A DNA stretch of 36,862 nucleotides. It comes from Desulfomonilaceae bacterium (lineage in GTDB: Bacteria; Desulfobacterota; Desulfomonilia; Desulfomonilales; Desulfomonilaceae). The stretch's first letter is position 1; every line of letters starts with the position of its first letter. A program made the position numbers and the translations under genes. The notes beneath the pieces are model-generated. The model had not been told where the DNA came from. It was given only the letters and a program-made list of their open reading frames with translations, and searched no databases. The stretch covers positions 1 through 36,862 of the forward strand of contig JAVHLK010000048.1 of NCBI GenBank assembly GCA_031082285.1. The letters are read 5' to 3'. Below are positions 11,000 to 24,434 of this stretch, piece by piece.

Positions 11000-11155
11000 G
11001 TACGCAACTCCGGGAACCCGTCGACAAGACATGCGTGGCGTCCCGCCGGCCAAGGAGCTCTTGTCACAACCGTTGAGACGCCTGCCTTTTTCTCATGAGG
11101 ATGCCGGCATCTCTATTGAATCTACGGTCCAACAGTGATTGAGTGCAGTGAGGTA

Positions 11156-11164
11156 TGGTATACT
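11156..11164 (+). promoter_or_regulatory. Extended -10 promoter candidate for the MNT-HEPN pair
   Basis: TGG followed by TATACT (11159-11164) forms an extended -10 element 43 bases before the ATG at 11208. No good -35 is visible, as is normal for extended -10 promoters. Confidence 0.35.
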
Positions 11165-11207
11165 TGGAATAACCGGTCGTTTCGGTGCGAGGAAAGGAGC
11201 CCGAGGC

Positions 11208-11501
11208 ATGACGAGAGAAGAAGCCGTAACACGCCTAGTCGCGCACCAACAGGAATTGCAGGCTCGAGGCGTTAAATCGTTGGCCCTGTTCGGGTCTGTG
11301 GCGCGCGGTGACGCGGACCGCTCCAGCGACGTGGACGTGGTGGTTGAGTTGGATCGACCCGTCAGCCTCTTTGGTTTGAGCGACATCAAGCACATGATTC
11401 AGACAATACTCGCTGCCGAGAAAGTGGATCTCATAACTCGTGACGGCATACATCCCGCGCTGAAGGACATTATTTTCCTCGAGGCCGTCGATGTCATCTA
11501 G
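11208..11501 (+). CDS. mntA: MNT-type nucleotidyltransferase antitoxin (MntA-like)
   Basis: A 97-residue minimal nucleotidyltransferase. It carries the active-site signature LFGSVARGDADRSSDVDVVV (G-S, ten residues, then D-x-D), which in characterised MntA proteins transfers AMP to the partner HEPN toxin and neutralises it. GGAAAGGAG and GAGG lie upstream of the ATG at 11208. It overlaps the downstream HEPN gene by 11 bp, the usual arrangement of this two-gene module. All catalytic residues I can identify are present, so the antitoxin should be active although its partner appears broken. Confidence 0.88.
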   Translation: MTREEAVTRLVAHQQELQARGVKSLALFGSVARGDADRSSDVDVVVELDRPVSLFGLSDIKHMIQTILAAEKVDLITRDGIHPALKDIIFLEAVDVI

Positions 11502-11837
11502 ACGGTGGAAATTCTTTCTCGAGGATATACTCAACGCCATCGAACGTGTCCAGGCCTACGTGGCGAACACGTCGTTCGAGGAATTCTCTCGGAACGATCT
11601 TCTGTCGGCCGCGGTCGAGAGAAAATTCATTGTGATTGGAGAAGCCGTGAGGCATATTCCTGACGAAATCAAGAGTTCGTACCCCGCGGTTCCCTGGCGT
11701 CAAATGGCCGACATGCGCAACCTCGTTGCACATGCTAGTGGGGTATTAATCCGCGCACTCTGTGGGACACCATCCATCAGGACTTGCCGCCTGTAATTCC
11801 CTTGCTCAAGGAGATCGTCGCAGAGTCGCCCGACTGA
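11491..11837 (+). pseudogene. HEPN (DUF86) toxin, frameshifted near its C-terminus
   Basis: The frame from 11491 encodes a clear HEPN/DUF86 start (RRWKFFLEDILNAIERVQAY), an internal IGEAVRHIPDEIKSSYPAVPW and the catalytic R-x4-H motif in RNLVAHA. After the codon near 11739 the frame changes to an unrelated tail and stops at 11796. In the frame one base away the family's normal C-terminus continues from 11739 (WGINPRTLWDTIHQDLPPVI then PLLKEIVAESPD) to a stop at 11835-11837. One base is therefore missing at about 11736-11740. The RNase motif is still encoded, but the last 33 residues are lost. Either the toxin is inactivated, or there is a sequencing error or programmed frameshift. Confidence 0.8.
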
Positions 11838-12209: not shown

Positions 12210-12242
12210 GTAATTCGTTGGAGATGCGTGGAGCGCCGAAAC

Positions 12243-12467
12243 ATGAGAAGCACTATTACCGAGCGAGGACAGACGGTCATACCTGCTGAAATACGCCGCC
12301 GATTCCGCTTGGGCCCGGCCGACCGACTCGAGTGGGTGGTAGAGCCTGAGGGAATCCGGGTTGTGCCGGTACGGGCTAATCCCATCGAGGCATTCCGTGG
12401 CCGAGGCAAAGGTGGCGGGACGCAGCGGTTGCTTGCTGAGCGCCGGGAAGAGCTGGCCAAGGAATGA
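12243..12467 (+). CDS. vapB: AbrB/MazE-type antitoxin (VapB)
   Basis: A 74-residue swapped-hairpin AbrB-fold antitoxin. The N-terminal DNA-binding part STITERGQTVIPAEIRRRFR is the classic SpoVT/AbrB motif, followed by GPADRLEWVVEPEGIRVVPV. The C-terminal tail (RGKGGGTQRLLAERREELAK) is the toxin-binding region. It overlaps the next gene by four bases (ATGA), so the pair is translationally coupled. It should bind and neutralise the VapC encoded downstream and repress its own promoter. Confidence 0.9.
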   Translation: MRSTITERGQTVIPAEIRRRFRLGPADRLEWVVEPEGIRVVPVRANPIEAFRGRGKGGGTQRLLAERREELAKE

Positions 12468-12865
12468 AAACCTATCTCCTCGATACATCCGCACTCCTGA
12501 CATTGCGTGACGACGAGCCGGGGGCCGACCGGGTGGCCGAGATGCTCGAGCACGCGCAGGAGGGAGCCGTACGATGTATTGGATGTTTCATTACGCTCAT
12601 GGAGGTGATGTACCGAGTATGGCGGGACGAGGGAGAGGCTGCCGGTCGGTTGGCGCATGAGCAGTGCTTGGCTTTGCCTATTACATGGATACATGAATCG
12701 CCGGATTTGCTCAAACGATCTGCCGAGATCAAGGCATGTCATGCGCTATCCGTGGCGGATGCCTGGATTGCCGCCTGCGCATTGGAGGAAGACGCCCTCT
12801 TGATCCACAAGGATCCGGAATTTCAGGCGGTGGCAGTCGAGCAGGAAGCACTTCCGCTGAAATAG
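12464..12865 (+). CDS. vapC: VapC-family PIN-domain toxin ribonuclease
   Basis: A 133-residue PIN domain of normal length. The conserved acidic residues are visible: D7 in YLLDTSALL, the Glu in ITLMEVMYR, the Asp in SVADAWIAA and a late acidic residue in LIHKDPEF. These bind the divalent metal of the RNase site. Unlike the VapC relic 250 bp upstream, this gene looks intact. The start overlaps the antitoxin stop by four bases. Confidence 0.92.
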   Translation: MKTYLLDTSALLTLRDDEPGADRVAEMLEHAQEGAVRCIGCFITLMEVMYRVWRDEGEAAGRLAHEQCLALPITWIHESPDLLKRSAEIKACHALSVADAWIAACALEEDALLIHKDPEFQAVAVEQEALPLK

Positions 12866-13222: not shown

Positions 13223-13688
13223 GGCGGACCTCACGTTTCACGGCATATCTCTGCTTCAAACATAACCTCTTGCAGGATTCGAAACCATCGCGACTCCGAT
13301 CCTCAGCCGGACAAGCATCGCCGAGCAGTGAGATATCCGGCTTAAGAGAGGGAGTTCCGAATTCGGGTGACACTACACTGCTCTTGTCAACAAGAGAGCC
13401 ATTCTCCATTCTCTCATAGCATGGCTTGGCCCGTCCGTCGCGCATCGTGGTCCCCGACTGTCCGCACGAAGTCGCGCGGCGTGATGTTCGTTCGATGGAC
13501 GTGTTTCATTCGGCATGGGGTGCGACCCGCAGGCCACGGAGGCTTTGTCGCGACGGTTGAGAGTCCGGCCGGGACCTGAGCTGGGCACGAACAGTGAAGC
13601 CCCGAAAGCGATCGCTGCGAAAAAGGTGTCATGTCCCCGGAATTCCCAACGGGCAGCCTCCTGCAAATTGCCGTTGCGCGGTACGCCG
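13223..13688. other. Intergenic stretch without recognisable genes
   Basis: In 466 bases I see several overlapping open frames on both strands, but none has family resemblance, a good ribosome binding site or a compositional signature of coding sequence. No hairpin terminator, promoter or repeat stood out. It separates the toxin-antitoxin patch from the DUF486 gene and may contain decayed coding DNA. Confidence 0.4.
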
Positions 13689-14039
13689 TCAGGCAAACTT
13701 GCCCCGGAAGATGAAAAAGACCGCTGCGACAAGACAAAGACCGGCCCACAGGTAATCTCGTTCCAACGGTTCTCCCAAATAGAACAGCGAAAACGGAATG
13801 AAGACGCTCAGCGTTATGACTTCTTGAATTATCTTCAGTTGCCCTACGGACAAGACGGTATACCCGATGCGATTGGCCGGAACTTGAAGCAAGTATTCGA
13901 ATAATGCGATTCCCCAACTGACCAGCGCTGCAATAACCCATATCTTGTTATTGAGCTCCTTGAGGTGCGCATACCATGCAAAAGTCATAAAGACGTTGCT
14001 GCAAATCAAAAGGATTATGGTTAATGCTACCGGACGCAA
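13689..14039 (-). CDS. DUF486 family small membrane protein (DMT superfamily-like)
   Basis: A 116-residue protein with four predicted membrane helices and the DUF486 signatures: LLICSNVFMTFAWYAHLK in the first helix, ALVSWGIALFEYLLQVPANR, IGYTVLSVGQLKIIQEVITL, and a final FIPFSLFYLGEPL followed by AAVFFIFRGKF. The length is normal for the family. DUF486 proteins resemble half-size drug/metabolite transporters; the substrate is unknown. The gene stands alone and points away from the repeat-bounded bza module. I see no clear promoter. Confidence 0.9.
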   Translation of the reverse strand: MRPVALTIILLICSNVFMTFAWYAHLKELNNKIWVIAALVSWGIALFEYLLQVPANRIGYTVLSVGQLKIIQEVITLSVFIPFSLFYLGEPLERDYLWAGLCLVAAVFFIFRGKFA

Positions 14040-14410
14040 CTATTAAGCCCTTTCTTGCAACGGACGTGTGTTCCGGTTCAGCGGGAGCCGGCCGGGAATC
14101 CCCTCAGCGGATGCTTCCCAGCAAAGCGTATATCGTATCGGAGACACTGCGGTCAAGTATCGGCGCACGTGTTTTCTTAACCCAACGAGGACATATCGGA
14201 GGACCTTTATCGGGCTCTTGTCGCGGTCGGGTTTTCCCTTCTCCCCAGCCGAATTGGTGACATGGGCTCGGTTCAGCGGTAGGTTCAGACTATGAAAGAG
14301 AGAAATCAATGGAAATCAATTGCCTATATCGAGAGGAAGAAGGAAGGAACAAACGAATAGGTGAGAATGAGCAATTCAATTGGTCATGTTCTCGTGTGGC
14401 ATGGCTCCAC
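14040..14410. other. Intergenic stretch upstream of the left direct repeat
   Basis: This 371-base region holds no recognisable gene. It ends exactly where similarity to the right repeat begins (14411), and its own sequence shows no similarity to the 200 bp preceding the right copy. It therefore marks the left outer junction of the repeat-bounded module. Confidence 0.45.
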
Positions 14411-14729
14411 TCAGAGACTGGTGCGGCTCTCCACATGAACTCGTAGCGGCCCAGGACCGTGTCGGAGCTACCGAAAGGAAGAACATCCCCGTTTCACTGC
14501 ATGGTAACCCAACCGCGTCACGTGCTCTTGCAATTGACCTGCATGACTGCTAATGCTCTTAACTCACCGGCAACGGCACATTGTCGCGTTACAATCCTCT
14601 CGGCCCCTTCGCAGCATGCGTGCGGCTCGGAGACCAAGATGAACGGCGGACTCTTTCTCGGCTTGGATTGCGGCTCGGTGAGCCTCAACATTGTCACCCT
14701 CGATGAGAAATCGGGCATGCCTGTCTCGC
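14411..14729 (+). repeat. 319-bp direct repeat, left copy
   Basis: It aligns without gaps to 24116-24434, with 7 mismatches in 319 bases (about 97.8% identity), at a constant offset of 9,705 bp. It contains the upstream region and first 30 or so codons of the activase gene. Homology ends three bases before the cobS stop codon at 14733. The two copies enclose the entire bza-cob operon and its riboswitch. Confidence 0.95.
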
Positions 14730-14755
14730 CGCCTAAACCGAAGCACCCGCGGTAA
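14639..14755 (+). pseudogene. 5' fragment of the acyl-CoA dehydratase activase gene
   Basis: The ATG at 14639 corresponds to the activase start at 24344, with the same GGAG ribosome binding site. It encodes MNGGLFLGLDCGSVSLNIV and the following residues up to PVS, nearly identical to the N-terminus of the 1443-residue protein, including the ASKHA phosphate-1 loop. Homology ends after about 30 codons and the frame stops at 14755 inside the antisense end of cobS. A 38-residue product could be made but would not fold as an ATPase. Confidence 0.85.
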
Positions 14756-15461
14756 CCAGTAGGAAGAGCATGGATTCCGTGACCTCGGTCATGGCCCCGA
14801 GCATATCGCCTGTCATGCATCCCATCCGTCTTTGAAAGTACCAGAGAATCCCCGCAGTCAATGCGACAAAGACCAGAATAAGCAAGATGCCTGGCCAACC
14901 CAACCAGAAGGACAGGACCACGGGGATAAGCAATCCCCAGAAGTCGGCCGGCTTCAAGCTATTTCCGAAGAGCGCATGGCCGGTGCCGCCATCCGGTCTC
15001 CCGTACTCGAGAAAATGTATGCCGAGCACCTGTCCTGCCCGAGCATAGGCGGGGATGACGATCAACAACAGATGCCGGTGACCGTCCAAGCCCGTGATTC
15101 CTCCCCATTTCATGAGCAGCCCGCAAACAACGGCAATGAGCCCCATGGCCCCGATCCGGCTGTCTTTCATAATTGCAAGGGCTTGCGCCCTCGACCGGTG
15201 TCCCAGCAGACCGTCCGCGGTGTCTCCCAGCCCGTCCAGATGAAAGGCTCCGGTGACCACGACGAGGAAGACCACGTCGAGGAGAGATGCAATGTTCTGC
15301 GGCCACAGTCGCAGCATGCACCAATCAAAGGCCGCGAGCAACACACCCACAATGATGCCCACCAGCGGAAAGAACGGCACCATCCGCTGAGGATCGTAAG
15401 TATTGGCCTTCCCGATAGGGAGAAGCGTGAGGAACCGTATGGCGGAAATGAGACCGATCAT
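14733..15461 (-). CDS. cobS: Adenosylcobinamide-GDP ribazoletransferase (cobalamin synthase) CobS
   Basis: A 242-residue integral membrane enzyme of the CobS/CobV family. It joins alpha-ribazole (or its 5'-phosphate) to adenosylcobinamide-GDP, the last assembly step of adenosylcobalamin. The family signature GAFHLDGLGDTADGLLG is complete, with KDSRIGAMGLIA following it and an N-terminal AIRFLTLLPIG. Several hydrophobic helices are evident. It is the last gene of the bza-cob unit, 512 bp downstream of bzaE across a repeat-rich spacer, and its stop codon abuts the left direct repeat. Confidence 0.95.
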   Translation of the reverse strand: MIGLISAIRFLTLLPIGKANTYDPQRMVPFFPLVGIIVGVLLAAFDWCMLRLWPQNIASLLDVVFLVVVTGAFHLDGLGDTADGLLGHRSRAQALAIMKDSRIGAMGLIAVVCGLLMKWGGITGLDGHRHLLLIVIPAYARAGQVLGIHFLEYGRPDGGTGHALFGNSLKPADFWGLLIPVVLSFWLGWPGILLILVFVALTAGILWYFQRRMGCMTGDMLGAMTEVTESMLFLLVTAGASV

Positions 15462-15973
15462 GCGTGCACTCTTGTCATCACAGGGTTAGTCGTTTCACGT
15501 GAAGAAGAAAGTGCGAACCACAAAGACATCAAAAAGAAAGAGATCTCGCGCGGAGACACAGAGAACGCGGAGAAGACAAAGAATCAGAAAGATTGAACCA
15601 TCAAGACACAAAGACACCCGGAAGAGGAGAAAATCTTAATTGGGGACAGTACGACCGGTAGCGTCACTGCCTGCCCCTCACCGCCCTGCCGGGCGTGGGA
15701 AGAAAGAGTATCCCGCGAAACGCGGGAAGGCCGGCGCTACCAAGAGACCGCTGCATCGCGCGGGGACAGTACGATATTCTCGTTCCCAGGCTCTGCGTGG
15801 TTCCCAACAGACCGCCGGCAAGGGAAACGGCGGGCGCAGCCCACCCCTGCTGTTGTTTTGCATTCCTTCATCCGGGCAACTCCTTGTCATCTCTGGATAT
15901 GTTCCTTCTCTTTCTTCTCTTCTTGGTGTCTTCGTGTCTTGGTGGTCGATTTCTTGTCCTCTTCCGTGAACAG
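15462..15973. repeat. Spacer made of interspersed repeat-like sequence
   Basis: No gene is convincing in 512 bases. Near 15513-15590 is a purine-rich element (ACCACAAAGACATCAAAAAG, then GGAGACACAGAGAACGCGG), and near 15905-15950 a related element lies in the opposite polarity (its complement reads CCACCAAGACACGAAGACAC). Between them are short inverted pieces (GGTAGCG and CGCTACC, at 15658 and 15734) and TCGTTCCCAGGCTCTGCGTGG-like sequence. These resemble interspersed elements I associate with intergenic DNA of deltaproteobacteria; that identification is from memory, not a search. Confidence 0.5.
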
Positions 15974-17482
15974 TTACATTTTCGCGTCCGCTGCAGCCCG
16001 CGAAATCATCTCCCGGAGTTCATTCTTGATATCGGCCTTCAGGTCATCGACCCGCGGCAGACGCGTCGTCTCCCGTGCGGTCTTCAGCAACTGTTGGAAC
16101 AGTTTGACCAAGTAATCGTTTACGGTCTCGGACACAGGACCGGCGACTGATTTGCGCCAATATATGGAGGATTCGGACCGGGACATATCCTGGAGCACGT
16201 ACAGACACGCGTGGACGACGAGTTCCGACATCCACTTCACTCGGGCATCTCTGTATGAAACTTCACCCTCAAAACCAAACATGCCGGTCTCCATGAGCCT
16301 GCCCTGTTCTTTGAACACCCGGTAGCCCGAGGTGCCCATCAGCACGATCTCACAATGGCACAGGAGATTGGCCGTCCTGTCCAACCTGTCGAGGAGGTTG
16401 TTGCGCTGCAGGAACTCCAGATTCTGCTCGAGATCGTCAATGGTGCTGTCCGGCACGAACATGAGAAATCCTACTTCCGGCTCGATTGCCACGGACCGGC
16501 ACAGGCTCAAGGCCCGTTCACCGGCATCCTGCGAACAAGACTTGTGGAGATTTCCGAGCACCCACGGGGATCCGCTCTCAATGCCCAGCAGCAGACTTTT
16601 CAGCCCCGCCGAGGTGAGGTGCTCCAAGATCTCGGCATCCAGATCGTTGGAGCGCGTCTCCATGCCGAACGTGATTCCCATAGGACGGATCAGTTCGGCG
16701 AGATCCAGGACACGAGACTTGCCTCGTTTGCCAGGCCCGACAAAATTCGGGTCCACAAAGTAGAAATCCCGAAATCCCAGGTTCGTGAGCCGAGTCATCT
16801 CTTCCGCCACATTCCCGGGGGACCGGCCTCGCCACACCGCTCCGTCATGGTAGAAGACCGGCACAGGACAGAAACTGCAGTGATTGTAACACCCTCTGGA
16901 GGCCAGCACGCTCGCGGTCGTGGCGCCTCCCCGATCCCGGAACGGGAATGGAAACGTGTCAGGACACGGGTCCGGTATTCGCGGTGAAGCCATGCCGACG
17001 CCTCGAGAGGTCCGGTAAGCCAGCCCCGGAACGTCTGTCCATTCTCTCCGTTTGCTGAGCCTCGCAGCCAGCTCCGTGAGGGTGTGTTCGCACTCCCCCA
17101 CTGCAATGGTGTCCACGGCCGGTGCTTCTCTGAGAATTGCCTGGTAGGCCAGTGTCGGAAAGAAACCGAACAGGTTGACATGCCCCTCGAAGCCGGCAGA
17201 CCTCAACTCGGAGATCGAATCAAACAGCTTGGGAGTGTGTTCCCAGAAATAGACGGCATTGATACAGAGGAGCGCGGGAGAGACTCCCAAGATATGGGAT
17301 TGCGTACGGTCAAAATCCCAGTCATTCTTCGTGGTGTCGAGAAAATGCACGTCGTGACCGGCCCGTTCCAGGCAGGCTGCCGCATAGCCTCCTATCAAAC
17401 AGGACCAGAGCGGGGTATTGGCGATATCATTAAAACGCTTTTCCGAACGGATCCGCGGGTGTTCCAGAACAAGCGCGATCAT
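15974..17482 (-). CDS. bzaE: B12-binding-domain radical SAM methyltransferase, BzaE-like
   Basis: A 502-residue radical SAM protein. Residues 1-150 form a cobalamin-binding-like Rossmann domain (VLEHPRIRSEKRFNDIANTP, then FFPTLAYQAIL and AVGECEHTLTELA). The radical SAM cluster motif is C198-x3-C202-x2-C205 in SRGCYNHCSFC, with GMETRSNDLDAEILEHL and LLLGIESGSPWVL downstream. In the Eubacterium limosum pathway BzaE converts 5-methoxy-6-methylbenzimidazole to 5,6-dimethylbenzimidazole. The name rests on family type and on gene order cobT-bzaC-bzaD-bzaE, which is kept here. The ATG at 17482 overlaps the bzaD stop by four bases (ATGA), so the pair is coupled. BzaD and BzaE roles could be swapped, because both are the same class. 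Confidence 0.8.
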   Translation of the reverse strand: MIALVLEHPRIRSEKRFNDIANTPLWSCLIGGYAAACLERAGHDVHFLDTTKNDWDFDRTQSHILGVSPALLCINAVYFWEHTPKLFDSISELRSAGFEGHVNLFGFFPTLAYQAILREAPAVDTIAVGECEHTLTELAARLSKRREWTDVPGLAYRTSRGVGMASPRIPDPCPDTFPFPFRDRGGATTASVLASRGCYNHCSFCPVPVFYHDGAVWRGRSPGNVAEEMTRLTNLGFRDFYFVDPNFVGPGKRGKSRVLDLAELIRPMGITFGMETRSNDLDAEILEHLTSAGLKSLLLGIESGSPWVLGNLHKSCSQDAGERALSLCRSVAIEPEVGFLMFVPDSTIDDLEQNLEFLQRNNLLDRLDRTANLLCHCEIVLMGTSGYRVFKEQGRLMETGMFGFEGEVSYRDARVKWMSELVVHACLYVLQDMSRSESSIYWRKSVAGPVSETVNDYLVKLFQQLLKTARETTRLPRVDDLKADIKNELREMISRAAADAKM

Positions 17483-18819
17483 GACTTGTAGTCCTCCATC
17501 CTCGTAGTGAGTCCCAGGCGTGAAAAGACACCTGCGACGTGGCAAAGAGCCTCCAACTCGTGCAACACGTGGGCAGACCCGATGGGATTGTGGTACACCG
17601 GGTAGAGCAGATCGACCCGAGGATCGAGTAGTCCTGCATTGAGGAGTTTACTCGTGAGCAACGCGTCTGGATACAATCGGACGTTGTTGAATATGACCGC
17701 ACCCAGATTCCCCACCGGGTGATGGACATCCAGGATACTGTGCAGCATGTCCCTCGCTTCCGCGACGTGAGCGCGAGTTTCCCCGGGTAGATTGATGAGA
17801 AAATGGCACATGGTGAGCACACCAATGGCCGCGGTTATGCGCGCGGCGCGGAGGACGTCCTTTTTGGACATGCGTTTATTGAGAACTTTCAGACCGTGCT
17901 CCGTGAGCGCGTCCGCGGAGAAGTAGACCGCGCACAACCCTGCCCTGACAGCCAAATCCGTCAACTGTTCGGTCAGCGTGTCCTCTCGAAAGAAGCCCGT
18001 CCAGTCGATCGGCAGTTTCCTTCGCAGAATCTCCCGGCAGACCGCTTCAAAATGATCAGCGGGGCGGTTCACCACCGAATCGGTGAAATGAAACAGACTG
18101 AGCCCGTGTTCCTTATTGAGGCACTCCATCTCGTCGACGATCTTCACGGGACTTCGGAGCCTCATCTTCCTCCCGCCCAACGAAGGGTACACGCAGTACG
18201 CGCAGTGCAGATCGCATCCACGTTTGCCTTCAATGCCCACGGCTGCCACGTATTTGTTCCCTCGTGTGTAGTCTGCCGGGCGAAAGAGATCGACATCCAT
18301 TTCAGGTAATGCATCCATGTTGATGTGATCCCCGCGGGGATTATCGTCGAGACCGTAGCTGCTTCTCCAGATCAATCCGGGCACGGATTCAAGAGAGGAC
18401 GACCCGAGCAACTGTGGGAAGGCTCCCTCCCCTTCACCGATCAGGCCGCAATCGATCTCCGGGCATTCGTGCATGAGACGCTTTCCGAACAGGGAAAATG
18501 CAGGACCGCCGGCCAATATCCTGGCTGCCGGCACCAGCAAACGGACCATACGGGCTGAGGTTTTCAACGAAGACAAATAGGAGGTCTGGTGACCGGCAAG
18601 TGGATCCATGTTCCTCATGGAAAGGGCAACCACGTCTGGATTGAAATCGAGCAGAGCTTGCTTGAGTGCCGGCCATGGATCTGATTGCAGATTCATGTCA
18701 AGGGCCTGCTTTTCGAACCGGTCGGGTATCAGCCGGGACAGCCTGGAAAGCCCCAGCGGATACACCCGTTCTCCGGCGCCCAAATGGGAAGTTGGAATTT
18801 GTACGAGCAGAATGCGCAT
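17479..18819 (-). CDS. bzaD: B12-binding-domain radical SAM methyltransferase, BzaD-like
   Basis: A 446-residue protein with an N-terminal cobalamin-binding-type domain (MRILLVQIPTSHLGAGERVY, PDVVALSMRN, ARILAGGPAFSLFG and LIGEGEGAFPQLL) and a radical SAM core with C202-x3-C206-x2-C209 in KRGCDLHCAYC. Later landmarks are VYFSADALTEHGLKVLNKR and HFLINLPGET. In the known anaerobic route BzaD adds the C6 methyl to 5-methoxybenzimidazole. I chose the ATG at 18819, with GGAGACAC before it; the frame is open much further upstream, but that part is repeat-like spacer sequence. It is 322 bp downstream of bzaC and overlaps bzaE by four bases. Confidence 0.8.
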   Translation of the reverse strand: MRILLVQIPTSHLGAGERVYPLGLSRLSRLIPDRFEKQALDMNLQSDPWPALKQALLDFNPDVVALSMRNMDPLAGHQTSYLSSLKTSARMVRLLVPAARILAGGPAFSLFGKRLMHECPEIDCGLIGEGEGAFPQLLGSSSLESVPGLIWRSSYGLDDNPRGDHINMDALPEMDVDLFRPADYTRGNKYVAAVGIEGKRGCDLHCAYCVYPSLGGRKMRLRSPVKIVDEMECLNKEHGLSLFHFTDSVVNRPADHFEAVCREILRRKLPIDWTGFFREDTLTEQLTDLAVRAGLCAVYFSADALTEHGLKVLNKRMSKKDVLRAARITAAIGVLTMCHFLINLPGETRAHVAEARDMLHSILDVHHPVGNLGAVIFNNVRLYPDALLTSKLLNAGLLDPRVDLLYPVYHNPIGSAHVLHELEALCHVAGVFSRLGLTTRMEDYKS

Positions 18820-19141
18820 GTGTCTCCGGTCGGTGAATGTCTTCAGTATGACCGGCATCTTGCCGGTCATAGTACTCCGCGGAGAAGATACGGAGCTGTA
18901 TTCTGTTCCCGCTACCGAATCGGAGTCCTGGAACCAGAGCTTACCGGGCACGGAGGCCCGGGCTACGGCAGATTCCACGATGCTTTGCACGGCTTCCGTG
19001 GGACGGGCGTCCCTGCCCGTCATTTTCAGGCACCTTCCCGGCTGAGATGCGGAACCAATCTTTCTCTGGAGCCCGGCCGCCGGCGGGAAGCCGGATGGGC
19101 CTCCGTGCCGGCATGCGTAGTACCACACGGCGTCCCATGGT
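18820..19141. repeat. Repeat-like spacer inside the bza operon
   Basis: This 322-bp gap between bzaC and bzaD is built of short inverted elements. The clearest is a 9-bp hairpin, ATGACCGGC (18848-18856) and GCCGGTCAT (18862-18870) with a 5-base loop. Others include GGGACGGGCGTCCCTGCCCG near 19000 and a CCGGCCGCCGGCGG run near 19077. The bzaD frame stays open through it, but the translation is low-complexity and lacks family features. I read it as inserted intergenic repeats that preserved the frame by chance. Confidence 0.5.
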
Positions 19142-20692
19142 TCACTCCAAGAGCAGCAGCCCAATGTACTTCACATACTGATCCTTTTCCGTCACTGGTT
19201 CCAGGGGGATGCCCGCGGTCCGCGCGGTAGTGTACACGTCGATTCCCGACCCCTCCATGGAAGGCCGGGCCTGATCCGGCCGGCGGCACGTGCCGTCTTC
19301 AGGACATGACTTGCATACGGGACAAGGACCGGCTCCAAATGCAAGTGCCTTGTGGAAGCCGGCCAGGAATGCTTTCCGTTCAAGTTGCAGGAGCCCGGCA
19401 TGGAACTCTCGCCCCGGCGGACTTCCTTCCAAGAGTAGACTCCACGTATAGGATTCCAGCATCTGCTTTGTGGACGTGCTCTCCATGCCGTGCGGAGGGC
19501 ATTGGAGGTTACGTCCGTACACGGCACATCCGCACTTGCACTTCACACGTACCCAGGCAGCGGTCACGATCTCTTGCACCGGCAGGAGAACCGCACGGCG
19601 AAATCCAACGGATCGGGCCTCGTATACCCAGTGATCCAGGTCCGTCTCTTCATGGTCCGGATTCCCTGTCGATGCCAGTAGGACCGAGGAATCAGTGGTC
19701 AGGTCCCGTATCCGAACGCGGCCCATGCCCGCGGATCTCAGCCATTTCACTACTTCCGCACTGTCATGACACGCGCCATCATAGGTGTTGAGCATCATGT
19801 TCAGATCGTACAGCGCACCCTTCTGAGGCGATCGGCCCCATCGGTCGGGAAAGTAGTCGTGAATGAGCACGAGACCATTCGGTTCGAGCAGTACCAGTGC
19901 CTTCTCAAGCAATTCCGGTGCTTCAACCGCGCCGTACGCATGCAGGAAATTGCTCAACACGATGAGGCCGAAGCGGTCTTGCGGGTCGAACTCAAAGGTT
20001 CGGAAGTCTCCTTCGATGATTCTGAACCTGTCCCACGCTTCCTCCTCCGGATAGAGCGTTTGTGCCGCCTGAATCACCTCCGGCAATTCAAACAGCGTTA
20101 CGTGGCCGTGGTCTTTGTTCCTTATGAGCGCCCTGCTCAGGGTGCCGGCTCCTCCACCCACATCAAGTACGGGAGGTTCCCATGTCTCCGACGATAGTAG
20201 CCGTGAGATTTCTTCGGCCTTGCCGCGTACCAGCTGATCCATGGCCCGGACGTAGTGGAATGTTCGTGTCGCGTAGTCCTGTTGAGCTAAGCAACCGTCA
20301 TTCGGTTTCCGTTCCACTCCTGATACCCTTTGGCCAAGCTCCTGCCACTTCGGTCGCATGTGTCGCCGGTAAAGGAAGAAATCGCCCATATAGGTTGGGC
20401 CGGCCGGCACCAGATAGAGCCGGGCAACCTGGCTGTTGAACCAAAACCCATTCGCTGAATGAACGAGATTAAGGGATTCCAACACCCTAAGGAGACGAAG
20501 GAGCTCAGCCTGGTGACAGCCCGCTGCTCGAGCGAGAGCATCAAGCCGGCAGCAGTGTCGCTCGAGCAATGCGAACAGCTTCAGATCCAACGCGGCAAAA
20601 AGGGTTTCCGAGTACCAGTAGGCCGTGGACAGATCCTCCAGGTACTGGAAATCCCTGTGAGCCGGGTCCGCGTCTTGAAAGGGAAATCGCAT
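19142..20692 (-). CDS. bzaC: O-methyltransferase BzaC-like, fused to a C-terminal DUF2284 domain
   Basis: A 516-residue two-domain protein. Residues 1-340 are a class I SAM O-methyltransferase of the plant-type/hydroxyneurosporene family: a winged-helix dimerisation part to about residue 100, SAM motif PVLDVGGGAGTLSRAL (174-189), then LSNFLHAYGAVEAPELL and a PNGLVLIHDYF strand. This fits BzaC, which methylates 5-hydroxybenzimidazole to 5-methoxybenzimidazole. Residues about 355-516 look like a DUF2284 domain with eight Cys in two groups (385, 387, 389, 398 and 457, 460, 463, 469), including NLQCPPHG and GPCPVCKSC, and so probably bind metal. The domain's role here is unknown. The gene lies between cobT and bzaD, the same place as bzaC in the Eubacterium limosum cluster. 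Confidence 0.82.
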   Translation of the reverse strand: MRFPFQDADPAHRDFQYLEDLSTAYWYSETLFAALDLKLFALLERHCCRLDALARAAGCHQAELLRLLRVLESLNLVHSANGFWFNSQVARLYLVPAGPTYMGDFFLYRRHMRPKWQELGQRVSGVERKPNDGCLAQQDYATRTFHYVRAMDQLVRGKAEEISRLLSSETWEPPVLDVGGGAGTLSRALIRNKDHGHVTLFELPEVIQAAQTLYPEEEAWDRFRIIEGDFRTFEFDPQDRFGLIVLSNFLHAYGAVEAPELLEKALVLLEPNGLVLIHDYFPDRWGRSPQKGALYDLNMMLNTYDGACHDSAEVVKWLRSAGMGRVRIRDLTTDSSVLLASTGNPDHEETDLDHWVYEARSVGFRRAVLLPVQEIVTAAWVRVKCKCGCAVYGRNLQCPPHGMESTSTKQMLESYTWSLLLEGSPPGREFHAGLLQLERKAFLAGFHKALAFGAGPCPVCKSCPEDGTCRRPDQARPSMEGSGIDVYTTARTAGIPLEPVTEKDQYVKYIGLLLLE

Positions 20693-21074
20693 GATTGTGA
20701 TTCCTAACTATAGTGTCGGCCCTTGAATACTGCGGACACCTTCACGTTTGTCATTGCCGTAGGGGTAGGTCCCCGTGCCTACCCTGGGCGGCCACAGGGG
20801 GCCGCCCCTACAGGAGGGCGTGGCAATCTCAGCCTTTCATGAATCATTGAGATTGCTTTCCCGCGGGACGCGGGACTGCGCTCCTCGCAATGACAGGAGC
20901 GATAGGTTGGAGCGTTGAGGAAATGGGTTAAGATCACCGCGAAATTCAAAGCGCGTCACTATAGTCGATTTCGTAAGTACGATCACGTCATTTGGTCCGC
21001 ACTCTCGACGAGTACCGATCAGGATCCGTCTCAAGTACTGGGGCCGGCGAACAGCGGCAATCCACTAGGGCGGG
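20693..21074. repeat. Repeat-like spacer between cobT and bzaC
   Basis: This 382-bp spacer contains two tandem hairpins, GGGTAGG/CCTACCC (20763-20769 and 20778-20784) and GGGCGGCC/GGCCGCCC (20786-20793 and 20799-20806). They are followed by a segment near 20845-20898 (GAGATTGCTTTCCCGCGGGA ending in CTCGCAATGACAGG) of a type common in intergenic DNA. No gene is supported. The hairpins could affect mRNA stability between cobT and bzaC, which is inference. Confidence 0.5.
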
Positions 21075-22193
21075 CTATGCCCGCCGGCTCAGTGGGACGT
21101 CTCGCTGGACCCTACGATCCTGGGACTCTGGTGACGACACGGCCGCTTGGTCGAATGTCAGCATCTCACAGGCAACGCGAGACGATGCGACCAAGATGGA
21201 CAACCCGAAAGCCGCGCCGGTCCCTTCACCGAGCCTCATACCCAGATCCACGAGTGGATCGAGCGCCAGTTCATCGAGCATCAACTTGTGGCCGGCCACC
21301 GCGGAAAGATGGCCCGCGAACAGATAGTTGCGTGCTTCAGGATGAAAACGCGAAGCGAGCAACGCGGCCGCGGTGGAAATGAACCCGTCTACGACCACCG
21401 GCGTCCGGCTCGCACACGCGGCTAGGATCATTCCTGCAATACCGCCTATCTCGAAACCGCCTACCTTGGCAAGCACGTCCAGCGGGTCGTCCGGATCGGG
21501 CCGGTTAAGAGCCAAGGACCGTTTCACCACCTCAATCTTGTGTTTCAAAGCGTTCCCGTCGATGCCCGTGCCTCGATTCACCGTCTCCGCCGGGTCCTGT
21601 TTCAGGAAGGCCGCAGCGATGGCCGCGGACGGGGTCGTGTTTCCTATTCCCATATCACCGGTCCCAAGCGCGTGGAGGCCCCGTGCCTTCTCTTCTTCAA
21701 ACACGCTGATTCCGGCCTCGAGCGATCGTCGCGCCTCATCTCGCGACATTGCCGGGCCCTGAGACATGTCCGCGGTTCCATCGGCAATTCTCCTGTGCAA
21801 CAGCCTCAAGTCCGGGAATTGCGGCTCTGCAAGCTCCGATAGCGGGCCGGACACGCCCATGTCCACGACCGTCAGCCGGGCGCCAACATGACGCGCGAGC
21901 ACATTGATGGCCGCGCCGCCCTTTGCGAAGTTGGCGACCATCTCCCGGGTGACTTCCTGGGGGAAAAGGCTGACTCCCCGGGCGACCACACCATGATCTC
22001 CGGCCATGACGACCACCGCGAGATCACGGATCTCAGGGCGAGGACTCCCCGTGATTCCTGCCAGTTGCACACACACTTCATGCAGGCGGCCCAAACTTCC
22101 CAGGGGGATGGCCAAAATGTCCTGGTGATGTTGAGCCGCCTCCATGGCGGCCTCATCGAGGCCGTCGATACGTGAGATGGTTTCCTCGATCAT
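21075..22193 (-). CDS. cobT: Nicotinate-nucleotide:dimethylbenzimidazole phosphoribosyltransferase CobT
   Basis: A 372-residue CobT. It transfers phosphoribose from nicotinate mononucleotide to a benzimidazole, giving alpha-ribazole 5'-phosphate. Family motifs in order are LGSLGRLHEVCVQLAGI, VVMAGDHGVVARGVS, PQEVTREMVANFAKGGAAIN, GTGDMGIGNTTPSAAI, GFEIGGIAGMILAA, VVVDGFISTAAALLA, and the C-terminal LGMRLGEGTGAA containing the catalytic Glu. It starts 14 bp after bzaF, so both share the riboswitch transcript. The C-terminal dozen residues (RRVQRDVPLSRRA) run beyond the usual end. Confidence 0.96.
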   Translation of the reverse strand: MIEETISRIDGLDEAAMEAAQHHQDILAIPLGSLGRLHEVCVQLAGITGSPRPEIRDLAVVVMAGDHGVVARGVSLFPQEVTREMVANFAKGGAAINVLARHVGARLTVVDMGVSGPLSELAEPQFPDLRLLHRRIADGTADMSQGPAMSRDEARRSLEAGISVFEEEKARGLHALGTGDMGIGNTTPSAAIAAAFLKQDPAETVNRGTGIDGNALKHKIEVVKRSLALNRPDPDDPLDVLAKVGGFEIGGIAGMILAACASRTPVVVDGFISTAAALLASRFHPEARNYLFAGHLSAVAGHKLMLDELALDPLVDLGMRLGEGTGAAFGLSILVASSRVACEMLTFDQAAVSSPESQDRRVQRDVPLSRRA

Positions 22194-22207
22194 GCCGGCC
22201 TCTTTCG

Positions 22208-23521
22208 TTACGCCTTGACGCTGTTCCTGAGCGTCTCTTCAAAGATATGCGCGGACGCCCTGTTCGCGCAGAATTCTCCACACATGGTGCAGACTTTGGA
22301 ATCTGAAGGTGAGCGTTCGCTCCGAATTCTCTCGGCGTCTTCAGGAAACAGGGCGTGCGTAAACTGTCCTTCCCAATTGGAATCGCGGCGTGCCTTACTC
22401 ATGGCGATGTCTCTCGGCAACGTCTTTTCAGGAAGCTTGCTCAGGTCACCGATATGGGCAGCCAGTTTGGCCACTTTGACGCCCTCGATGACGTCTGCTT
22501 CGGTGGGCAGCGCCAAATGCTCGGCCGGCGTGATGTAACAGATCAGATCCGCGCCGTACCGCGCGGATTGAGCCGCCCCGATAGCCGCCACGACGTGGTC
22601 GTACGCTGCGCCGATGTCAGTGGGAAGCGGTCCAAGCATGTAGTATGGAGCGTGATTGCTCATACGTTTCTGAAGGATGATATTGGCCTCGATCTCGTCC
22701 AAAGGCACGTGCCCGGGACCCTCCACCATCATCTGACATCCCATCCGCCGGCCTTCTTCAGCCAGTTCGCAATTTATCAACAGTTCCTGAATCATGGCAC
22801 GGTCGAAGGAGTCGGCAATCGCACCGGCTCGGAGTCCATTCCCCAAAGAGAGGACCACGTCGTATTTCTTCAAGATACTGACGACACGGTCGAATTTCTC
22901 ATACAGGGGATTCTCCTTCTTGTTGGACTTCATCCAGTCGACCATGAACGTGCCGCCTTTGCTCACCAACCCTCCGTAACGGTATCCTTGTTTTTCCAGA
23001 CGCTCGATGGTGTACAGATTGATTCCGCAGTGGATGGCCATGAAGGTGATTCCGTCGGCGCATTGCTGCTCGATAAGGTCGAACAGCAATGCGTCATCCA
23101 AGCGATTAGGATGGCCGTACTTGCGGTTGGCTTCACAAAAGGCCTGATACAACGGCACGTTACCCACGGGAAGATCCACCGCGGCGATGACCTCCCTTCG
23201 GATCTTGTCCAGGTTTCCGCCAACGGACAATTCCATCAGGGTATCGGCCCCCGCGTTCTGAGCCGCGACGGCCTTGCGGACCTCCGCGTCGATGTCTACG
23301 ATATCGGTGGACGTGCCGATAGAGGCATTGATCTTGGTGGTGAGACCGTTGCCAATAGCCACCACGTTGCACTTCCTATTCTTGTTCGATGGTATGACGA
23401 TCTGTCCGTTCGCGATACGTTCGCGTACCAGGTCAACGGACAATCCTTCCACCGACGCGGTGTGCTCCATTTCCGGGGTGGTGATGCCCTCGACAGCGAG
23501 TTCCACTTGGGTGCGGTCCAT
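22208..23521 (-). CDS. bzaF: 5-hydroxybenzimidazole synthase BzaF (ThiC paralogue)
   Basis: A 437-residue radical SAM enzyme of the ThiC superfamily. Motifs include IPSNKNRKCNVVAIG, TKINASIGTS, GADTLMELSVGG, PVGNVPLYQAF, TFMAIHCGIN and MVEGPGHVPLDEIE. The C-terminal cluster motif is C411-x2-C414-x3-C418 (CTMCGEFC). The superfamily also includes thiamin ThiC, but three context facts favour BzaF, which converts aminoimidazole ribotide to 5-hydroxybenzimidazole: a cobalamin riboswitch controls it instead of a TPP riboswitch, cobT follows by 14 bp, and bzaC/D/E-like genes lie downstream. AAGGAG precedes the ATG. This is the committed step of lower-ligand synthesis without oxygen. Confidence 0.9.
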   Translation of the reverse strand: MDRTQVELAVEGITTPEMEHTASVEGLSVDLVRERIANGQIVIPSNKNRKCNVVAIGNGLTTKINASIGTSTDIVDIDAEVRKAVAAQNAGADTLMELSVGGNLDKIRREVIAAVDLPVGNVPLYQAFCEANRKYGHPNRLDDALLFDLIEQQCADGITFMAIHCGINLYTIERLEKQGYRYGGLVSKGGTFMVDWMKSNKKENPLYEKFDRVVSILKKYDVVLSLGNGLRAGAIADSFDRAMIQELLINCELAEEGRRMGCQMMVEGPGHVPLDEIEANIILQKRMSNHAPYYMLGPLPTDIGAAYDHVVAAIGAAQSARYGADLICYITPAEHLALPTEADVIEGVKVAKLAAHIGDLSKLPEKTLPRDIAMSKARRDSNWEGQFTHALFPEDAERIRSERSPSDSKVCTMCGEFCANRASAHIFEETLRNSVKA

Positions 23522-23549
23522 GATCTTCTCCTTTCACTGTTCTTCGGCC

Positions 23550-23586
23550 AAAAAAAAATCCTCAAGCGTTAAACGCTTGAGGATTT
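23550..23586 (-). terminator. Rho-independent terminator of the cobalamin riboswitch
   Basis: A near-perfect inverted repeat (arms 23557-23570 and 23572-23585, core TCCTCAAGCG/CGCTTGAGGA) is followed on the minus strand by an uninterrupted T run. It lies between the aptamer and bzaF, 29 bases before the start codon. This makes it the expression platform: the leader terminates when cofactor is bound. Confidence 0.92.
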
Positions 23587-23609
23587 GCCTTCTCCGCAAA
23601 CGGATCCTT

Positions 23610-23893
23610 CACGACGGCAGGTCTTCTGACTCTCGGATCAACCTCCTCCCGCGCCTTCCCACCGGCACTCGACTCTCATGCTGCATCCGAAAAGTCGTGC
23701 TTACAGTGGAGACATCCGCTCCACCGGAAGATATGCAGTCAAGACAGAGAGCCGCGTACTCGGCAGTGGCTTTATCCCGATCGGCAGCCTCCCTATGAGG
23801 CTGACAACCAGGCTGCGGGATTCGTCCCCGATTACAGCGGCGGGTCCGTACCGGAATTTCACCGGTTTCCCTATTATGCTCTTACAGCCACCA
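23610..23893 (-). promoter_or_regulatory. Cobalamin riboswitch aptamer
   Basis: The minus strand carries the cobalamin riboswitch landmarks in order: GGGAAACCGGTGAAATTCCG and ACGGACCCGCCGCTGTAA (about 23884-23838), AAAGCCACTG (about 23776-23765), GGTGGGAAGGCGC (about 23665-23653) and the 3' element AGTCAGAAGACCTGCCG (about 23632-23614). The internal region between the ACTG box and the GGGAAGG element is long, suggesting extended peripheral stems. Combined with the terminator just downstream, high cobalamin should shut down bzaF and the genes behind it. Confidence 0.95.
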
Positions 23894-23920
23894 TCGAGAA
23901 GATAGTCTTATGTGTCACCA

Positions 23921-23949
23921 TGATTAAGGGCCGGTACCAGCCTTGTCAA
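23921..23949 (-). promoter_or_regulatory. Sigma-70-type promoter of the bza-cob operon
   Basis: On the minus strand TTGACA (23949-23944), a 17-base spacer and TAATCA (23926-23921) form a good vegetative promoter. Transcription would start near 23914, about 20 bases before the first riboswitch element. Confidence 0.7.
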
Positions 23950-24115
23950 GTATTTTTTGACGGGAGTTGCGGGTACGCCATGGAGCATGAGTCCGACAGG
24001 CCAAGATACGCTTTGGGTATACGGCACGAATGGCGGCTCTTGGCTCATCCTCACCATGGTGTGAGCTCCGATAGATGTCGGGGCCGTCACGCATTGAAAA
24101 GAGTCGAGGGGCTCA

Positions 24116-24434
24116 TCAGAGACTCGTGCGGCTCTCCGCATGAACTCGTAGCGGCCCAGGATCGTGTCGGAGCTACCGAAAGGAAGAACATCCCCGTTTC
24201 ACGCCATGGTAACCCAACCGCGTCACGTGCTCTTGCAATTGACCTGCATGACTGCTAATGCTCTTAACTCACCGGCAACGGCACATTGTCGCGTTACAAT
24301 CCTCTCGGCCCCTTCGCAGCATGCGTGCGGCTCGGAGACCAAGATGAACGGCGGACTCTTTCTCGGCTTGGATTGCGGCTCGGTGAGCCTCAACATTGTC
24401 ATCCTCGATGAGAAATCGGGCATGCCGGTCTCGC
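24116..24434 (+). repeat. 319-bp direct repeat, right copy (functional activase 5' end)
   Basis: Partner of 14411-14729 with 7 mismatches and no gaps. It covers 228 bp upstream of the activase start and its first 30 codons. This copy continues into the full gene and is therefore the original or restored junction. The 5' boundary lies about 165 bp beyond the bza promoter. Confidence 0.95.

Follow-up and report, generated by a model that had tools for sequence, protein, structure and literature searches.

How did a pair of long direct repeats come to bracket a set of genes for the lower ligand of vitamin B12 in a contig of a Desulfomonilaceae bacterium, and are these repeats a means of movement or the trace of a past recombination? 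The window, meaning the whole stretch of 36,862 bp that was analysed, contains two 319-bp copies of one sequence (Table 1), which align without gaps, show seven differences (98% identical) and are spaced 9,705 bp apart from repeat to repeat. The coordinates, length, differences and spacing given in an earlier note on this DNA were all exact on re-alignment. The match is far above chance (BLAST E ~2e-155), the pair is the sole long repeat in the window, and only these two copies are present in the 5.6-Mb genome.

Both copies correspond to the beginning of a gene for a BadF/BadG-type activase; about 228 of the 319 bp precede the activase ATG and are non-coding, and 91 bp are coding. In the left copy, a frame of 38 aa runs from the ATG at 14639 to a stop, with unrelated sequence after codon 30. 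The last base of the copy is 14729, and the cobS stop codon (14733-14735, minus strand) follows after three further bases; the earlier description of this copy as a truncated activase 5' end touching that stop is fairly worded. Of the two, it is the left copy that seems to be decaying, as a dead copy would: codon 20 reads Thr there, against Ile in the right copy and Leu in the family activases that were compared. The differing positions (14420, 14433, 14457, 14498-14499, 14697, and 14722) lie toward the edges and leave a core of 197 bp without a mismatch (14500-14696); under even spacing of differences, a stretch of that length has p of ~0.01-0.02. Gene conversion, a crossover between two strains that differ slightly, or averaging during assembly could each account for this edge bias. 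The 2% difference had previously been read as a sign that the event is not brand new or that gene conversion is incomplete; conversion is compatible with the data, but the reading as age is not compelled, since the difference may be an allelic one between donor and recipient and need not measure time.

The repeat was also considered as a structured RNA or as hairpin DNA, and both were rejected, since it has no Rfam match and folds no better than its shuffles. Should the activase promoter lie within the upstream part of the left copy, transcription from it would run antisense into the end of cobS (14639-14755).

Table 1. Features of the bracketed module and the adjoining activase gene, in window coordinates.
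Feature	Position	Strand	Evidence or content
Left repeat copy	14411..14729	+	228 bp upstream sequence and first 30 activase codons, then homology ends
cobS, second copy	14733..15461	-	PF02654 2.6e-49
Gap with host dispersed repeats, 512 bp	15462..15973		repeats at 15684-15743, 15852-15962
bzaE-like B12-binding radical SAM protein	15974..17545	-	CYNHCSFC motif; homologs beside bzaF in L106, L107, others
bzaD radical SAM protein	17479..18822	-	TIGR04385 5.4e-123, 411.5 bits (cut-off 450 bits)
bzaC-like O-methyltransferase fused to DUF2284	19142..20692	-	full-length matches in L106, L107, L113
Dispersed 260-bp element	20706..20966		inverted ends, dozens of genome copies
cobT, second copy	21075..22193	-	TIGR03160 2.1e-128
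bzaF-type ThiC paralog	22208..23521	-	PF01964 5e-175
Terminator-like hairpin, between riboswitch and bzaF	23556..23586	-	14-bp stem and T run
Cobalamin riboswitch of bza operon	23599..23910	-	RF00174, 98.8 bits
Promoter-like site TTGACA-18-AATCAT of bza operon	23920..23949	-	consensus match only
Right repeat copy	24116..24434	+	intact activase start with upstream region
BadF/BadG-type activase with DUF2229, 1443 aa	24344..28675	+	PF01869, PF09989

Between the two copies, the minus strand carries, from right to left, the promoter-like site, the riboswitch, the hairpin, bzaF, cobT, bzaC, bzaD, bzaE, and cobS. As in a bza operon, a ThiC paralog of the BzaF/BzaA/BzaB type stands beside bzaC, bzaD, bzaE, and cobT, although the scores of the module fall below the cut-offs of TIGR04385 (BzaD) and TIGR04386 (BzaB). 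The genes are preceded by a cobalamin riboswitch, which is also found 5' of bza genes in six related loci. The bzaF gene is 73-77% identical to riboswitch-linked bzaF-type genes and 45% identical to the native thiC of this genome (on C35), and the bzaD open reading frame continues upstream as far as 19164. The assignment of bzaC and bzaE is based on neighbourhood and on weak family matches. The BzaC-like form fused to DUF2284, a metal-binding domain, occurs at full length in three other loci (L106, L107, and L113), and a shorter BzaC-like protein is found in other clusters. In three further loci (L062, L063, and L064), bzaF-type genes that are 73% identical have a cobalamin riboswitch just upstream and no other bza genes or cobT nearby.

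The set of bzaF, bzaC, bzaD, and bzaE is presumably able to reach 5,6-dimethylbenzimidazole. Since no protein of this genome reaches the cut-off for BluB, the module may be its only source of a benzimidazole. In the published scheme, differing combinations of bza genes lead to differing benzimidazoles (PMC6461909). The operons described there (bzaABCDEF) are alike in having bzaF, cobT, and bzaC-, bzaD-, and bzaE-like genes under a cobalamin riboswitch, whereas the module has cobS across a repeat-rich gap, a DUF2284-fused BzaC-like protein, a dispersed element inside, and a bracketing repeat.

No ortholog of this kind of bzaF or cobS was found in the 17 other Desulfomonilaceae genomes checked (Desulfomonile and relatives, judged from titles), in which the best matches are ordinary thiC and a cobS only ~30% identical. 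Among 395 genomes sampled in the phylum, just 8 others contain bzaE (E<=1e-60), and one or more bza genes were present in 96 of ~10,600 genomes in one survey (PMC6461909). This genome also possesses native counterparts, namely the second thiC on C35, a cobS (G000:C251), and a cobT (G000:C99). Since the module is absent from the 17 family genomes, rare in the phylum, and redundant with the native cobT and cobS, it was probably acquired. Homologous sets, for example bzaF-bzaC-bzaD-bzaE, were found in distant families of the phylum, and several of them have a cobalamin riboswitch; this gene order is common to the module and one locus (L107), and other clusters include cobT. A search of plasmids with bzaE gave weak general radical SAM matches only, and no bzaF was found in viral contigs.

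The module cannot be regarded as an untouched cassette of foreign DNA. The 260-bp element that sits between bzaC and cobT has a short inverted sequence at either end (CTATAGTG...; CTATAGTGtCG / CTATAGTGaCG). Complete or partial copies of it (e.g. L119, L120, L121, and L124) are spread across the genome by the dozen, with parts that are up to 98% identical, and several contigs start or stop within it. It matched loci of this genome only (0.96 Mb of loci compared) and looks like a non-autonomous miniature element. Dispersed genome repeats are likewise present within the gap that separates bzaE and cobS, and other short intergenic ones lie to the left of the module (13406-13515 and 14236-14347). 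The repeat copies had been said to enclose exactly the operon, its riboswitch, and its promoter; all three are enclosed, but "exactly" overstates the case in view of the gap before cobS and the element between bzaC and cobT. Since repeats of this genome lie inside it, the module has probably been resident for some time in this genome or in a genome that shares those repeats, and cobS may have been added separately.

The activase itself is divergent among the long activases of the family, being 53-57% identical to all of them. A scan of genome contigs returned family activases only, and a further long activase of this genome is found at C110. To the right of the gene, a thiolase-DUF35-ECH2-ECH1 block is kept across the family, where it has other neighbours (83-90% identity for ECH2), and the family relatives are without an activase at this place. 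On the left flank, a DMT_6 (DUF486) gene at 13689-14039 has a 95% identical relative in another genome of the family (G005), also in another context. Since both flanks stand in other contexts in the family, the original neighbour of the activase is not readable from either of them. The 95% identity of the DMT_6 gene is unusually close for this family, and a recent transfer is possible. Further to the left, translations suggest two candidate toxin-antitoxin pairs, at 12228-12865 and 11139-11796 (AbrB-like with PIN-like, and nucleotidyltransferase-like with HEPN-like proteins).

A mobile element bounded by the repeat was considered and rejected, since no recombinase gene lies inside, the copies are two only, and the repeat has no match on plasmids, phages, or viral contigs. 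As had been noticed earlier for transposases and integrases, no transposase, integrase, or relaxase is encoded between the repeats, where the six gene-sized ORFs are all cobamide-ligand genes. A single repeat, an empty site, a donor, or a module without repeats was not found in the genomes searched, which included none of the same genus; the family genomes compared do not share the site, and the neighbours differ at both flanks. In-silico removal of one repeat period leaves the 1443-codon activase frame intact, in agreement with the earlier note. Because the frame is kept whole, the loss of 9.7 kb by one crossover is possible on paper, as it is for any direct repeat.

The reading favoured here, to which a probability of about 0.5 is given, is that an acquired module was placed at the activase 5' region by circularisation of a fragment, or by an illegitimate join at one end, together with a single crossover. 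A B12-repressed anaerobic benzimidazole operon would have arrived directly upstream of the activase, with the 5' region of that gene as the only homology. A strain in which the module already stood beside the activase gene would have supplied the fragment, made up of the module and the 5' end of that gene; the ends of the fragment would have been joined into a circle, or an illegitimate join would have been made at one end only, and one crossover would have integrated it into the resident activase 5' region. The 319-bp homology would then be present twice, as a truncated copy at the cobS-end join and a complete copy at the gene, and the repeat would be a passive scar, through whose copies RecA could delete or amplify 9.7 kb. 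The order of events, the donor, and the circular intermediate are those that we infer. Since dispersed genome repeats lie inside the module, a conspecific donor would fit better than a distant one. Gain of the module as a circle by single crossover, as the earlier note proposed, is a plausible event in the history of this locus.

This history is favoured because it requires one event and explains why the similarity ends in unrelated sequence on both sides. An exact partial duplication of a gene start brackets foreign-looking genes, which speaks for it, and the insert lies within a direct repeat of target homology of which one copy is truncated, as in the product of a single crossover. Against it speak the absence of a donor, an empty site or a single-repeat relative among the genomes searched, and the fact that a tandem duplication with a subsequent deletion would produce the same two junctions. 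In that course, the module would already have stood upstream of the activase; its duplication within the lineage would have joined codon 30 of the activase to the cobS end, and the first module copy would then have been deleted except for the left 319 bp. Both junctions would then result from ordinary events, with no second strain needed, and the identical core would suggest a recent duplication; yet two events are required rather than one, and the second module copy leaves no other remnant in the window, in which no trace of a tandem duplication was found to the left of 14411. Overall, this course appears somewhat unlikely.

The 197-bp identical core also raises the possibility of misassembly, and the genome consists of 314 contigs with 4% contamination, some of which end in another repeat elsewhere. 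The true form behind an unresolved repeat could be a module-free chromosome with a circle, a module located elsewhere, or a mixture of strains; since 197 identical bases exceed the usual k-mers, short reads may fail to tell the integrated form apart from a deleted chromosome with a circle. An assembly effect is nevertheless distinctly improbable: the junction between repeat and cobS and the copy-specific edge differences should exist in the reads under any version, and a 9.7-kb circle on its own, having no replication genes, would be lost. More doubtful still is a reversible cassette, in which part of the population would lose and regain the module, or carry it amplified, through RecA acting on the repeats. 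Although the geometry permits it, the deletion product keeps the activase frame, and the native cobT and cobS remain after deletion, no recombinase lies between the repeats and no relative in the deleted state was found, such geometry belongs to any direct-repeat pair, and a circle that does not replicate would seldom re-enter. It is just as hard to credit that a population-level switch gives cells with different cobamides, with the module spreading between strains as an activase-targeting circle.

The locus is most likely an instance of an already known kind, in which recombination has left a scar next to a metabolic operon that was acquired. In work on E. coli with linearised non-replicating DNA, 56 of the 60 recombinants analysed gave a product diagnostic for partial target duplication, and the duplications, which measured 109-950 bp in the 14 sequenced, were explained by circularisation and a single crossover (PMC3240628). 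The module resembles this Campbell-type integration (pJA2/lacZ) in that non-homologous DNA is bracketed by a partial target duplication, with 319 bp falling within the range of 109-950 bp; it differs in that the end product alone is seen here, with the parents and the circle unobserved, and in that the copies are 2% different. Homology-facilitated illegitimate recombination, which is known from Acinetobacter, Streptococcus pneumoniae, and Pseudomonas stutzeri and has been proposed for Vibrio T6SS modules (PMC5361080), is alike in its one homologous anchor, its one illegitimate join, and the gene remnant beside the insert; however, it usually causes a deletion in the target, whereas the module locus has a direct repeat instead.

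Anaerobic benzimidazole operons are rare and patchy, and a visible insertion scar offers a concrete route by which the synthesis of a lower ligand may be gained or lost. Gain or loss of the module could thereby change the kind of B12 made by a strain. Should strains that have the module and strains that lack it be found, both its gain and its loss would be datable and directly testable.
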